Shown one piece after another: positions 18,558-34,656 of a DNA stretch of 64,000 bases. The notes beneath the pieces were generated by a model. That model was not told the origin of the DNA. It did no database searches and saw nothing but the letters and a program-made list of their open reading frames with translations. Position 1 is the first letter of the stretch, and every line of letters begins with the position of its first letter. The stretch is taken from contig CAIYPA010000193.1 in NCBI GenBank assembly GCA_903927965.1, positions 17,594 through 81,593 of the forward strand, given 5' to 3'. Origin of the DNA: an uncultured Bacteroidia bacterium (GTDB lineage: Bacteria > Bacteroidota > Bacteroidia > Bacteroidales > Prolixibacteraceae). The position numbers and the translations under genes are program-made.

Positions 18558-20777
18558 ATGAAAATTATCTGTCTGGGAAATTATCCCCCACGTCAATGCG
18601 GTATAGCTACGTTTACCGGAAATTTGATAAATGCCATTTTGAACGCTGCGGATATTCATGCTTATAACGTTGAAATAGAGGTAATTGCAATGAACGACAA
18701 CGGTAGTTCATACAATTATCCCCCAATTGTCGGGCATGTGATCAACGATAGGGTGATGAATGAGTACATCATGATGGCAGAAACCATCAATAATTCGGGT
18801 GCTGAATTGTGTTTGTTGCAACATGAGTTTGGGATTTTTGGGGGCGAAAGTGGGGTTCTTCTCCTTGGCCTTTTGCGAAGGTTAAAAATACCGGTAGTCT
18901 CAACTTTTCATACCGTTTTAAAAACCCCAACTTTCCATCAGTTTGAAATCATGAAGAAAATTGCCGCTTACTCTTCACGGATCGTTGTGATGAATAATCT
19001 GGCAATCGGATTTTTAACGGAACTTTACCATGTTTCGCGCGAAAAAATTGTCCGAATTGAACATGGAGTGCCGGATTACGAAATTTACAAGGATCAATTG
19101 TTGCCCAAACCAACGAACTGGGAAAACAGGACCATCATGCTCACTTTTGGATTGATCGGGCGGAGCAAAGGGATCGAAACAGCAATTAAAGCCCTGCCTG
19201 CAATTGTTTCAAAGCATCCCGATGTTTTGTATGTTATTCTTGGAAAGACACATCCCAGTATTGTCAAAAATGTAGGTGAAGAATACCGTGATTTTTTGCA
19301 TGAACTGGTGAAGAGCCTAAACCTGGAGGACAATGTCGTGTTTATAAACGAGTATGTCAGTGAATTGGAATTGATGTCTTACCTGAAAGCTGCTGATTTA
19401 TACATTACACCTTATCAAAATAAAGCCCAGATTACAAGCGGGACATTAAGTTATGCAGTTAGTAGTGGTTGTGCAGTAATCTCAACACCTTACTGGCATG
19501 CAGAAGAGTTGCTTGCTGAAGGACGAGGTTGCCTGTTCGACTTCGGAAATTATAAACAACTGGCTCAGATCGTGAACCAATTGCTCGATAACCTGGATTT
19601 GATGCACCAATTGCAACAAAAGGCTTATGACTATGGGAAAACAATTGCATGGCCTAAAATTGGCAAAGCTTATCTTGACTTATTCGATGTTACCGTTTCG
19701 AACAGGAATCAATCAGAGTCCATACAGATTAAAGAGTTGACCATCAATTATCCAGATTTTGATATCGCCCACCTGAAACGGCTTACTGATGATACCGGTT
19801 TATTGCAACATGCAAGGACCAATGTTCCAAATTACAAGGCCGGATATAGCCTTGATGACAATGCCCGGGCCATTCTGGTCTGCACCACCGCCTATTATCA
19901 ATCCAATGATCAGGTTTACCTTGACCTTCTGAATAAATATATGGCGTATGTTGCTTATATGCAGCAAGTTGATGGGTATTTTAAAAATTTCATGACTTAT
20001 GAAGGTGCTTTATTGGATTGTACTTCGGATGATGCTTATGGACGAACAATATGGGCCCTGGGATACCTGATCCGCTTTGCTCCCATCGAGCCCTATTTTC
20101 ATTTGGCCCTTGAATTATTCGAACATGCACTGCCCCAATTGAACAATCTGACCTACGCACGTGGATATGCCAATTGTATTTTGGGTTTGTACCATTATAT
20201 CAAACGATTTCCCGATCAGGAAAAATACCTGAAATTGTTGCAGGTTTTATCCGATCAGCTCTGTGAAAAGTTCAATGATCATAAACGTGAAAACTGGAAC
20301 TGGTTTGAAACCTCCCTGACTTACGACAATGGCCTTTTGCCTGCCGCCTTATACAAAGCCTATGAAATTTCGGGCAACGATACCTATTTGCAGGTTGCTG
20401 ATGAAAGCCGGTTATTTTTGGAGTCAAAATGTTTTAAGGAAGATTGGTTGTCGTTGATTGGCAATCGGAAATGGTTGCACCTGGACAGGATTTACGATTA
20501 CGAACTTTTTGCCCAACAACCCATCGATGCCATGGCCATGGTCATCCTTTACAAGAGTGCATGGGAAGCAACAGGTAACAAAGAATATATCAACAAATTA
20601 CTCATATCATTTGATTGGTTCTTCGGAAAGAACGATCTTGATATCAGTTTGTTCGACCTCGAATCGAAAGGATGCAACGATGGGATTGAGGAGTTCAACA
20701 TCAACCGGAACCAGGGGGCAGAAAGCAACCTAGCCTACCTCATTTCGTGGCTTGTGGCAAAACCCTTTATTTTATAG
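18558..20777 (+). CDS. GT4-type glycosyltransferase fused to a C-terminal alpha/alpha-barrel-like domain
   Basis: GNYPPRQCGIATFTGNL, STFHTVLKTP, LTFGLIGRSKGIETAIKALP, ITSGTLSYAVSSG; C-terminal half DDTGLLQHARTNVPNYKAGYSLDDNARA... Confidence 0.9.
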   Translation: MKIICLGNYPPRQCGIATFTGNLINAILNAADIHAYNVEIEVIAMNDNGSSYNYPPIVGHVINDRVMNEYIMMAETINNSGAELCLLQHEFGIFGGESGVLLLGLLRRLKIPVVSTFHTVLKTPTFHQFEIMKKIAAYSSRIVVMNNLAIGFLTELYHVSREKIVRIEHGVPDYEIYKDQLLPKPTNWENRTIMLTFGLIGRSKGIETAIKALPAIVSKHPDVLYVILGKTHPSIVKNVGEEYRDFLHELVKSLNLEDNVVFINEYVSELELMSYLKAADLYITPYQNKAQITSGTLSYAVSSGCAVISTPYWHAEELLAEGRGCLFDFGNYKQLAQIVNQLLDNLDLMHQLQQKAYDYGKTIAWPKIGKAYLDLFDVTVSNRNQSESIQIKELTINYPDFDIAHLKRLTDDTGLLQHARTNVPNYKAGYSLDDNARAILVCTTAYYQSNDQVYLDLLNKYMAYVAYMQQVDGYFKNFMTYEGALLDCTSDDAYGRTIWALGYLIRFAPIEPYFHLALELFEHALPQLNNLTYARGYANCILGLYHYIKRFPDQEKYLKLLQVLSDQLCEKFNDHKRENWNWFETSLTYDNGLLPAALYKAYEISGNDTYLQVADESRLFLESKCFKEDWLSLIGNRKWLHLDRIYDYELFAQQPIDAMAMVILYKSAWEATGNKEYINKLLISFDWFFGKNDLDISLFDLESKGCNDGIEEFNINRNQGAESNLAYLISWLVAKPFIL

Positions 20778-22656
20778 GGTTCGTCTTCAGTATTTTATCA
20801 ATCCTGAGCAAAAGCAATTTTGGGTCGACAGGTTTTTTGATGTATTCTGCAGCCCCCATCTTTAAGCCTTTTTCCTCGTACTCGGTACCAGTATGACCGG
20901 AAAGGAAGATGACTGGGATGTTGACCTTGTTGTTCTTCATGTATTCAAGCATTTGGTAACCATCTAGATGTGGCATGGCAATATCCGACAGGATCAGGTC
21001 GTATTTCTCTTTGGATATCTGCATCAAAGCGATTATTCCATCAGGTGCGATGTCAACATCATAACCTTCCGATTTTAATATGCTACCAATCAGTTTCTGA
21101 TTAATCACCTCATCTTCAACAATCAGGATCCTTGCTTTCATTTTTTCGGGGCTTGGGCGTCCCATTTTCATGTCAGTAGGAAGAAGGTTGGTCAGCAATT
21201 CCTTTAAAGAAATGGTCGCATAGGTCGATGCGGTATCCGACATTGCATAAGGGATTACCAATTCATCATTGTTGATGATCGAACCGCATGAATAGACGAC
21301 ATTGGGGACATAACCTTCCCGTTCTTCTTCATTGGGCATCAAAAGGGGTTCATTCAACTGCCCAATCACTTTTGTCGGGTCTTCCAGATCAAGTAAAATC
21401 GCACTGATGACATATTTGCGCATCGGGCCAACCCCATGGGTGATCACGAGCCAACCAAATTCCGTTTCGATGGGGGACCCGCAATTGCCGACCTGGATAA
21501 ATTCCCATGGAAATTTGGGTTGTTGAAGGGGTATCGCCTCATGCCACAAGTTGATCTTTTCAGAAAACATGATGTAGTTGTTGATACCGTCTATCCGTGA
21601 AAGCATGGCATATTTGCCTTTTATTTTCCTGGGAAACAAGGCCATCCCTTTGTTCTGGGCATTTTCGCCATGGATCGGTTTAACCTTGAAATGGTAAAAA
21701 TCTTTTGTTTCTATCATCATTGGCATAATGCTGACACCATTGTAAGCCGTATAAGTCGCATAATACCGTTCTAATCCATCCTCATTGGTGAATTTTACAA
21801 ATCGGGCATCTTCGATCCCATTGCTTTCAGCAGCGGATATTGGAAAAATAACCCGATCTGAAATACCTGTGTCGAGCGAAAATTTAATCCTGTAATGGGA
21901 ATCGCCCAACCAACTGATTATCTGCAACATTTTTCGCTGGGACTCATCCGGCTGCAATTCCCTCTTGATCTCGTCAATAGCCCTGTAAAGTTCATTGTAG
22001 TCAAATTCTGAATTCAGCCTTGAAACAAGGTGATCGACCACTACATTCTCACCCGGCAATTCGCAAACACCATACACTTCGTAAAGTTTCTGGAAAAAAG
22101 TTTCTTTGTTGTAACTATAGTTGTAAACATTTTCTGCCTCATCGATCAGTCGGCCAGTAGGAATGAGTTCGAGGTTATTTTTTGCATCAAGAATCCCACC
22201 ACGAAAAGCAATCGATGAGATATGCCCTTCACCGGTTGCCCTGAAACTGATGATCACCCGTTTTTGACCCTCCTGAAGGCCTGTCTGATCGGGATCCTCA
22301 ACCATTGATGGATTGAAAAAAGCGGCAGACTCAATAGAATATTCCGATGAAAAAAAAGCGCCGATCAGTAGCTTTTTATTGATTGACATGTCACTGAGGT
22401 CTCCTATCCTGCCGTTCATGATGTCACGTACCCGGTCGAAATGTTTATGGAATATCTTTGAAATGTTGCGGTGCCTGGCCGAAAAATCGCGCAAGGTGCG
22501 GTTAAGGCTCAGATGGGCGGCCTCTTCTGGCATGTCAATCACCTTTTGGATAATCGATTGCACACGTGATTCAGGGCCGGGGAAAAAGAATCGGACAATA
22601 ACCCTTTTGGGGTCGCTGTAAAAGCGGATGGATTTACGGTGAATGGCAGTGCTCAT
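20767..22656 (-). CDS. GH130-like glycoside phosphorylase/hydrolase fused to a C-terminal CheY-like receiver domain
   Basis: GH130-like NGIEDARFVKFTNEDGLERYYATYTAYNG, KDFYHFK, HGVGPMRKY; C-terminal REC ARILIVEDEVINQKLIGSILKSEGYDVDIAPDG..LILSDIAMPHLDGYQMLE..VIFLSG..YIKKP. Confidence 0.9.
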   Translation of the reverse strand: MSTAIHRKSIRFYSDPKRVIVRFFFPGPESRVQSIIQKVIDMPEEAAHLSLNRTLRDFSARHRNISKIFHKHFDRVRDIMNGRIGDLSDMSINKKLLIGAFFSSEYSIESAAFFNPSMVEDPDQTGLQEGQKRVIISFRATGEGHISSIAFRGGILDAKNNLELIPTGRLIDEAENVYNYSYNKETFFQKLYEVYGVCELPGENVVVDHLVSRLNSEFDYNELYRAIDEIKRELQPDESQRKMLQIISWLGDSHYRIKFSLDTGISDRVIFPISAAESNGIEDARFVKFTNEDGLERYYATYTAYNGVSIMPMMIETKDFYHFKVKPIHGENAQNKGMALFPRKIKGKYAMLSRIDGINNYIMFSEKINLWHEAIPLQQPKFPWEFIQVGNCGSPIETEFGWLVITHGVGPMRKYVISAILLDLEDPTKVIGQLNEPLLMPNEEEREGYVPNVVYSCGSIINNDELVIPYAMSDTASTYATISLKELLTNLLPTDMKMGRPSPEKMKARILIVEDEVINQKLIGSILKSEGYDVDIAPDGIIALMQISKEKYDLILSDIAMPHLDGYQMLEYMKNNKVNIPVIFLSGHTGTEYEEKGLKMGAAEYIKKPVDPKLLLLRIDKILKTNPIK

Positions 22657-22734
22657 TGGTCAATTTTTTTTCTAAAAGTAGATAACAAGAATGAATAATC
22701 AAAATGAAAAGATTTTTTAGGAAAGTTCAACCGA

Positions 22735-22842
22735 AACAGGAAACCGGAAACAGGAAACCGGAGAAGGGAAACCGGAGACAGGAAACTGGAGACCGGAAAC
22801 TGGAGAAGGGAAATCGGAGACAGGAAACCGGAGACTGGAAAA
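22735..22842 (+). repeat. short degenerate tandem repeat (GGAAACCGGAGA-like)
   Basis: Repeated ggaaaccggagaagggaaaccggagacaggaaactggagacc units. Confidence 0.85.
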
Positions 22843-32355: not shown

Positions 32356-34656
32356 ATGCTTGCACGAAAGAAAAAGACTTCAGAGGTAGAAACGTTAAAA
32401 CTGCTTCAAGAACTGGAATTGTTTCAAACTGAATTGAAGGCTCAAAATGAGGAGTTATTGATGGCAGTTGCGAAAGCAGAAACAGCAACGGCCCTGTACA
32501 ACCTGGCCCCTTCTGGTTATTTTACCCTTGCAATCGATGGTACGATCCTGCAAATCAATCAATCCGGTTCAGAAATGCTTCAGACGGAACGTTCCAGGTT
32601 GATCAATAGCCAAATCAAATTATTTATCTCCTCCAGTACCCTCCCCATCTTTAATAATTTCCTTGAGGACACTTTTAAATTAAAAAGTAAGCAGCATTGT
32701 GAAATTCAATTGATCATTCACGACACCCCATCCATTTTTCTACATTTAGATGGCAATGTTTTTCAAAATCACACTTGCTTGATTACAGCGGTCGATATCA
32801 CAAACCGGAAAAAAGAAGAAGAAAAGTTGAAGAGGAGCGAAAATCAGTTCCGGAATATATTTGAAAATGCGACAATTGGTATTTATCACTCCACACCGGA
32901 AGGAAGGTTCCTTAAAGTGAATTTGAAACTTGTAAATATGCTCGGGTATACATCGACAGACGAATTGATCAATGGAACGACCAATATAAATACCCAAATC
33001 TATGCCGAACCTGAAACAAGGCCTATAATATTGGGGGCAATGATGAGCAAGGACGGATGGGTACATTTTGATAAAGTACTTTGGAGGGGAAAAGATGGCA
33101 ATACCGTTATTTTGGATATGAGTTCCAGAAAAGTCCTCAATCCCGATGGATCGATTGCCTACCTTGAGGGTATTGTAGCCGACATCACCGCTAAAACAAA
33201 CTCGCAGGAATTGATCAATCAGATCCGACAGAATTATGAAACGTTCTTCAATACGATCGATGATTTCCTTTTCGTTTTGGATGAGCAAGGGAACATCACG
33301 CACACAAACACGACTGTCATTGACCGACTTGGATATTCTTCAGAAGAGTTGGCAGGGCAATCGGTCCTGATGGTCCACCCGGAGGAACGTAGGGCGGAGG
33401 CTGGACGGATAGTCGGTGAAATGTTGGCCGGAAAATCAGTGTTTTGTCCTGTTCCGTTAATCACTAAAGCAGGTAATGCCATCCCTGTTGAAACGAAGGT
33501 AAAGGCTGGTATCTGGAATGGCAAACCAGCAATTTTCGGAGTAACCAAAGACATTTCCCAAACCAAATTGTCGGAGGAGAAATTCTCCAAAGTTTTTTAT
33601 CTTAACCCATCTGCCTGTGGATTAAGTGATTTGCAGACTGGTGAATACATTGAAGTCAATGATGCTTTCTATTCGTTGTTTGGTTTTACCAAAGAAGAGG
33701 TGATCGGCAAAACAGCTATTGAGTTGGGAATTTTGACCAGTGAAACAAAAAAAATGATTTTGGAAACTGCTGACAAAAGCGGTATCTATTCAAATATTGA
33801 AGCCGATTTAAAAGCAAAGAATGGCGACATCAAACATGTTTTACTTTCAACTGAAAACATCTTTGTTCAACATGTAAAGTTATGATATACAGTTGTTTAT
33901 GATATTACTTTGCGCAAACAAGCGGAGATTGCATTGAAAGACAACGAAGTTCGTTTAAAGGAATTGAATGCCACCAAGGATAAATTTTTCTCAATTATCG
34001 GTCACGACCTCAGAAATCCCTTTAACGCAATTATCGGTTTCAGCAACCTATTGACCGACCAAATCAAGGAAAAAGATTATGAAGGGATAGAAGAATATGC
34101 AAATATCATCCAGACTTCTTCTGTCAGGGCGATGTCATTGCTATCCGACTTGCTCGAATGGTCACAAATACAAACCGGTAAAATGACATTTTCTCCAATC
34201 ACCTTCGATTTAGCAAAGCTGGTCAATGAAGTTTTGGAACTTGCCAATTACAATGCCCACCAAAAAAAGATCACATTTATTAATGAATTACCCCATACAG
34301 TTATTGTTTTTGCTGACATTTCTATGATTGGTACAATCCTTAGAAACCTGATTTCTAACGCAATCAAATTCTCCAATTTGAACGGACAGGTAGTGATCTC
34401 AGTCAACCAAAGACCGACAGAATTGATTGTAAAAATTCTTGATAATGGAATAGGTATAAAGGAAGAAACCATTGGGAAACTTTTCCGGATCGACGAGGCA
34501 TATTCCACTCCTGGAACCCTGAAGGAGACAGGAACGGGACTTGGGCTATTGTTGTGCAAAGAACTGGTCCAGAAACACGGGGGCGAAATATGGGTTGAAA
34601 GCAAGTTTGGATCGGGCAGTACTTTCTTTTTTACGATTCCACAATTGCTAAATTGA
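32356..34656 (+). pseudogene. multi-PAS sensor histidine kinase interrupted by an in-frame TGA at 33883-33885
   Basis: ORFs 32356..33885 and 33910..34656 are in the same frame; ...FVQHVKL*YTVVYDITLRKQAE... continues a PAC domain across the stop into the kinase core. Confidence 0.85.

Follow-up and report, generated by a model that had tools for sequence, protein, structure and literature searches.

A GH130 β-mannoside phosphorylase-like enzyme fused to a conserved response-regulator receiver domain in Bacteroidales

Background

Glycan phosphorylases under the control of protein phosphorylation are well known from eukaryotes, in which glycogen phosphorylase answers to phosphorylase kinase; that enzyme, however, has a fold (GT35) unrelated to the one described here, is phosphorylated on serine by a separate kinase and carries no receiver. 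In bacteria, to our knowledge, nearly all receiver (REC) domains act on transcription, second-messenger enzymes or motility. The T9SS response regulator PorX, for which in vitro phosphorylation and dimerisation have been studied (PMC11320123), resembles the present protein in joining, likewise in Bacteroidetes, a CheY-like receiver to an enzyme that does not bind DNA; in PorX, however, this enzyme is a phosphodiesterase of the alkaline-phosphatase superfamily with a role in the control of secretion, i.e., an unrelated catalytic domain with no sugar chemistry (PMC11320123). On the enzymatic side, the closest described proteins are the Thermoanaerobacter Teth514 phosphorylases (PMC4264767), which are the best sequence and fold matches, align in the Glu-Asp pair, the -1 subsite Asp and the basic K/R/H positions, and belong to a cluster that also has a GT4, as does our locus. 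In contrast to the fusion, they are ~300 aa single-domain proteins without REC, N-terminal helical extension or helical insert. Nearer relatives are the long REC-less GH130s found here in Bacteroidota and in a few delta-proteobacterial and Planctomycetota MAGs (L035, L037, L038, L042-L061 and L086-L102), which share the N-terminal extension and propeller (42-60% identity) and frequently a GT4 neighbour, but stop at about residue 490, without REC, and in some cases lie in hybrid-kinase islands (L042, L058). GH130 and REC are each domains of known kinds; their combination was undescribed as an architecture in the literature searched (mostly non-subscription papers), although domain databases may well list single proteins.

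Results

Architecture of the fusion gene

The window, a 64,000-nucleotide stretch of an uncultured Bacteroidia genome, contains a single gene that a sequence-only reading had described as a full GH130-like domain followed by a full receiver, and this is borne out by the open reading frame and by Pfam matches to both domains (Table 1). Glyco_hydro_130 (PF04041) matches residues 267-488 (E 6.6e-29, 101.3 bits vs a cut-off of 26) and Response_reg (PF00072) matches residues 510-619 (E 4.7e-28, 98 bits vs a cut-off of 30). The former covers part of the enzyme, as alignment and AlphaFold2 place the actual start of the propeller near residue 103. The AlphaFold2 model (pLDDT 87.6, pTM 0.72) leaves the relative orientation of GH130 and REC loose; because this pTM and the disordered linker leave the domain orientation unfixed, an allosteric path is invisible in the model.

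Table 1. Coordinates of the fusion gene, its parts and the adjacent glycosyltransferase gene in the window
Feature	Position	Strand	Basis or remark
GT4 glycosyltransferase with C-terminal α/α-barrel-like domain, 739 aa	18558..20777	+	convergent; 3' ends overlap GH130-REC by 11 nt
GH130-REC fusion gene, 629 aa, ATG start	20767..22656	-	ORF, Pfam, homologues
N-terminal helical extension, residues 1-101	22354..22656	-	AlphaFold2 secondary structure and alignment; common to REC-less long GH130s
GH130 β-propeller, residues 102-491, helical insert ~184-252	21184..22353	-	Pfam, alignment, AlphaFold2, Foldseek
Flexible linker, residues 492-507	21136..21183	-	~15 residues; AlphaFold2: pLDDT <50 at 495-504
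REC domain, residues 508-624	20785..21135	-	Pfam; Foldseek to BeF3-activated DrrD receiver, rmsd 1.0
D283 codon, invariant GH130 catalytic Asp, GIEDAR motif	21808..21810	-	24/24 fused proteins; role per PMC4599007
D558 codon, predicted phospho-acceptor Asp	20983..20985	-	conserved in 24/24

Upstream of the gene, a promoter scan gave more consensus matches than shuffled sequences, the consensus being uninformative for Bacteroidota promoters. At window positions 22729-22841, ~70 bp upstream of the start codon, a 14-bp unit (ACAGGAAACCGGAG) is repeated in tandem (7.6 copies).

Fold and predicted activity of the GH130 domain

The five-bladed β-propeller fold is supported by the model confidence and by Foldseek, in which the top 35 matches were all GH130 structures and the best PDB match was Teth514_1788, a 1,2-β-oligomannan phosphorylase that was matched in its phosphate complex as well (TM by target 0.76). 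By sequence and fold together, the Thermoanaerobacter phosphorylases of 1,2-β-oligomannan and of β-1,2-mannobiose come first among solved structures and the Listeria β-1,2-mannobiose phosphorylase next, while β-1,4 GH130 enzymes are more distant. The putative active site comprises the catalytic E282/D283, N115 and D474 of the -1 subsite and the basic residues K336, R354 and H407, with N115 assigned by motif and the catalytic and -1 subsite equivalents taken from PMC4264767 and PMC4599007. Conservation among the fused proteins is complete (24/24) for N115, E282, D283, R354 and D474, and nearly so for H407 (23/24) and K336 (22/24); N115, D283 and D474 are also conserved in the alignment with the REC-less long GH130s. 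Going by PMC4599007 and PMC4264767, the active site agrees with a β-1,2-type phosphorylase in its catalytic Asp, in the Glu beside it, which is a trait of β-1,2 enzymes, and in its basic positions. Because K336 was matched to the β-1,2 specificity lysine, and R354 and H407 to phosphate ligands, by alignment, we infer both ‘phosphorylase’ and ‘β-1,2’. The earlier wording, ‘GH130 phosphorylase-like’, was thus a fair one for the predicted enzyme, whose fold and residues point to β-1,2-mannoside phosphorylases and away from the β-1,4 activity of the Pfam name.

Some GH130s are inverting hydrolases (PMC4599007), E282 beside the catalytic Asp marks the GH130_NC/β-1,2 type, and the fused GH130 is also close to Uhgb_MS, which is annotated as a mannoside synthase, so that a β-mannosidase or a synthase under the same REC control has to be weighed. 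This appears unlikely: K336, R354 and H407 correspond in the alignments to basic residues in the Teth514 phosphorylases, whereas hydrolases have acidic replacements; the hydrolase BT3780 is a far weaker match (5a7v, 5.5e-05); and the known GH130 hydrolases are secreted (PMC4599007), whereas the fusion has no signal peptide, as judged by eye, and carries a cytoplasmic REC.

Receiver site and selection on both domains

The receiver has the E514/D515 acidic pair (VEDE), D558 (SDIAMP), S586 and K608 (KKP), so that every site residue required for phosphorylation geometry is present; in 24/24 fused proteins D515, D558 and K608 are unchanged, position 514 is acidic and position 586 is Ser or Thr. No other receiver occurs in the window, as had been noticed from the letters: of 121 REC matches genome-wide, only C193:38393-38722 falls within the window coordinates, a further one lying ~11 kb upstream of the window. 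Since the genome has ~120 such matches, little can be read into its standing alone in the window.

For unsaturated pairs, dN/dS was ~0.06-0.08 for REC and ~0.02-0.04 for GH130; in most pairs with the window gene dS was saturated while dN was just 0.05-0.21. Codon comparison thus indicates that both domains are under strong purifying selection, and both look active. The linker, by contrast with these domains, is variable and poorly conserved among the fused proteins, which argues against its being a rigid coupling element.

RECs without a DNA-binding output can serve as phosphate sinks, and the genome holds many kinases besides its ~120 REC matches; the GH130 could accordingly be a sensor, in which mannoside binding controls REC as a sink for another response regulator. 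We give this little credence, since catalytic residues invariant in 24/24 proteins and a GH130 dN/dS lower than that of REC would be unneeded for a mere sensor.

Distribution and single origin of the fusion

The fusion recurs in other genomes and its phosphorylation geometry is intact, so that neither of the two objections foreseen in the first description applies. At least 24 distinct fused GH130-REC proteins were found, the most divergent of them at 44-50% identity and with both domains confirmed by Pfam. A scan of named genomes added eight MAGs, most of them Bacteroidia/Bacteroidales, that encode full-length fused proteins at 70-90% identity. Of 393 genomes sampled from the order, 75 gave a match to a long GH130; an ORF of >600 aa was present in 15, one of which is the genome of the window, and all 14 of the other >600-aa GH130 ORFs carry REC. 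Further fusions occurred in another order of the same class (one, G694) and in the same family (two, G1181 and G1232), and outside the class there were zero fused forms among the phylum-sample matches. A GH130-REC 83-84% identical, together with GT4, lies at L030:6001-7884 on a contig from a Verrucomicrobia-labelled MAG, which may reflect horizontal transfer or mis-binning.

A maximum-likelihood tree from the GH130 part alone of 61 long GH130s, without an outgroup root, placed the 24 fused proteins on one side of one branch (98/78), and REC gain amounted to one change in 100% of bootstrap trees. A separate REC tree, with a small comparison set of 20 further RECs encoded at the same loci, kept the 24 fused RECs together as one clade distinct from that set (90/82). 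One clade in each tree is therefore consistent with a single capture, and the simplest history suggested by these sequences would be one receiver capture followed by inheritance, possibly with some transfer between lineages. Repeated independent fusions are unneeded given a single change on the tree. Loss of REC within the fused clade was considered for four short matches (G1176, G083, G353 and G1229) and rejected: they look like frameshifted or truncated REC-less forms, have no REC match beside the GH130 match and are absent from the tree.

Given that REC is a very common and mobile domain, as its 121 matches in this genome illustrate, the fusion might be functionally neutral, as an accidental C-terminal addition or an assembly chimera. 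We regard this as scarcely credible: 24 distinct proteins from many independent assemblies form a single clade, five REC site positions are invariant, REC dN/dS is <0.1, and the frequent REC loss or decay expected within the fused clade was not seen. A chimera or chance fusion is ruled out by the 24 homologues and both trees.

Linkage to a GT4 glycosyltransferase gene

The GT4 gene with its α/α-barrel domain, a partner that the sequence-only reading had missed, is the sole recurrent neighbour of the fusion, being immediately adjacent (≤129 nt or overlapping) in 15 of 24 loci, a count limited by contig ends. Within these 15 fused loci, 13 pairs are convergent (10 with overlapping 3' ends) and 2 are co-directional. 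At the overlap in the window, a terminator-like hairpin was rejected, as the folding is no better than that of shuffles (z 0.03). No SusC/SusD Pfam match, as would be expected of a polysaccharide utilisation locus, was found among the window proteins scanned (18-39 kb). REC-less long GH130 loci have a GT4 within 6 kb in 21 of 37 cases; a further GT and a second, short GH130 are often present there too. At L057:1055-4318 (-), a short GH130 and a GT4/α-α-barrel protein are fused in one 1087-aa ORF, which provides independent support for a functional GH130-GT4 link. Apparent stand-alone lipoproteins that resemble, by eye, the C-terminal α/α-barrel of the GT4 protein lie beside several GH130s at L059:9451-10752 and L061:7808-9079, the L059 locus having in addition an ABC transporter ATPase; these hint that the α/α-barrel domain may itself be a β-mannan-active enzyme.

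Stand-alone and hybrid RECs often work through partner binding. The main rival to allostery is accordingly recruitment, in which a phosphorylation-dependent face of REC docks the GH130 on the GT4 protein, a kinase or a membrane complex while turnover remains unchanged. The flexible, poorly conserved linker and the adjacency of the GT4 gene would suit such docking, but the full conservation of the phosphorylation site is equally predicted by allostery, and we consider recruitment rather unlikely.

Candidate phosphorelay partners

Several histidine kinases had been placed 7-17 kb from the fusion; kinases are indeed present, but as two intact genes and one split by an in-frame stop, at 7.2-14.7 kb. 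The further suggestion that those at 29.8-37.3 kb are its partners is not supported, since a histidine kinase lies within 8 kb in just 3 of 24 fused loci, the window locus included (7.2 kb), a count limited by contig ends. As their proximity to the fusion is unconserved, we rejected the window kinases as cognate partners. What survives of the proposed phosphorelay control of sugar turnover is the control itself, which remains the most economical reading of an intact conserved site, but not the window kinases as its link. In the split PAS kinase (window 32356-34656, +), a single in-frame stop near 33883-33885 divides a four-PAS protein (32356-33885) from a HisKA+HATPase ORF (33910-34656) in the same frame. 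Over their kinase part, the neighbouring window kinases share 63-70% identity, which suggests tandem duplication. The best lead for a partner comes from another locus (L074), where a PAS-GAF-HisKA-HATPase kinase without receiver lies 104 nt upstream of the fusion on the same strand.

Some REC-less long GH130 paralogues (L058, i.e., G000:C480, L042, L052 and L054-L057) lie in an island with a CHASE3-PAS hybrid kinase, an AraC-type regulator, a stand-alone REC, an AI-2E transporter and holin-like proteins, a content reminiscent of stress response. In L042, 25 nt separate the end of the lone REC gene from the start of the GH130 gene that follows it. The position of REC-less sisters beside hybrid kinases or stand-alone receivers (L042, L058) suggests that the family may associate with phosphorelays more broadly, and the fusion may be the covalent form of such an association.

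Discussion

Our preferred reading, to which we assign a probability of roughly 0.6, is that the protein is a cytoplasmic GH130 β-mannoside phosphorylase acting as an enzymatic response regulator, phosphorylated at D558 and working with the GT4 protein on a β-mannan-type glycan. Its observed basis is the domain architecture, the single origin, the conservation of both active sites, purifying selection and the GT4 linkage; from these we infer phosphorolysis rather than hydrolysis, the β-1,2 linkage, phosphotransfer, allosteric switching and the glycan.

As an enzymatic response regulator, a GH130 β-mannoside phosphorylase, most like 1,2-β-oligomannan phosphorylase, would have gained a permanent C-terminal receiver. 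D558 would receive its phosphoryl group either from a small phosphodonor or from a histidine kinase whose gene, in most genomes, probably lies elsewhere. Phosphorylation may change the α4-β5-α5 face of REC and thus alter its docking or dimerisation, which in turn could change propeller assembly, substrate access or activity. The fusion and the adjacent GT4/α-α-barrel protein would make and remobilise a β-mannan-type glycan, the phosphorylase presumably exchanging terminal mannose with α-mannose-1-phosphate. Since close REC-less paralogues manage without it, REC is unneeded for catalysis; and because such sister enzymes exist at 50-60% identity, the regulatory gain is testable by direct comparison.

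More tentatively, and at somewhat less than even odds, a phosphorelay may act directly on a glycoside phosphorylase and, together with GT4, govern an uncharacterised β-mannan turnover in Bacteroidales, which would make this the first receiver-regulated carbohydrate phosphorylase. REC appears to be wired directly into an enzyme of central carbon or storage-glycan metabolism, with no detour through gene expression, and, if true, the fusion would be a bacterial counterpart of kinase-controlled glycogen phosphorylase, while its GT4 partner suggests that environmental Bacteroidales have a β-mannan-type pathway yet to be described.
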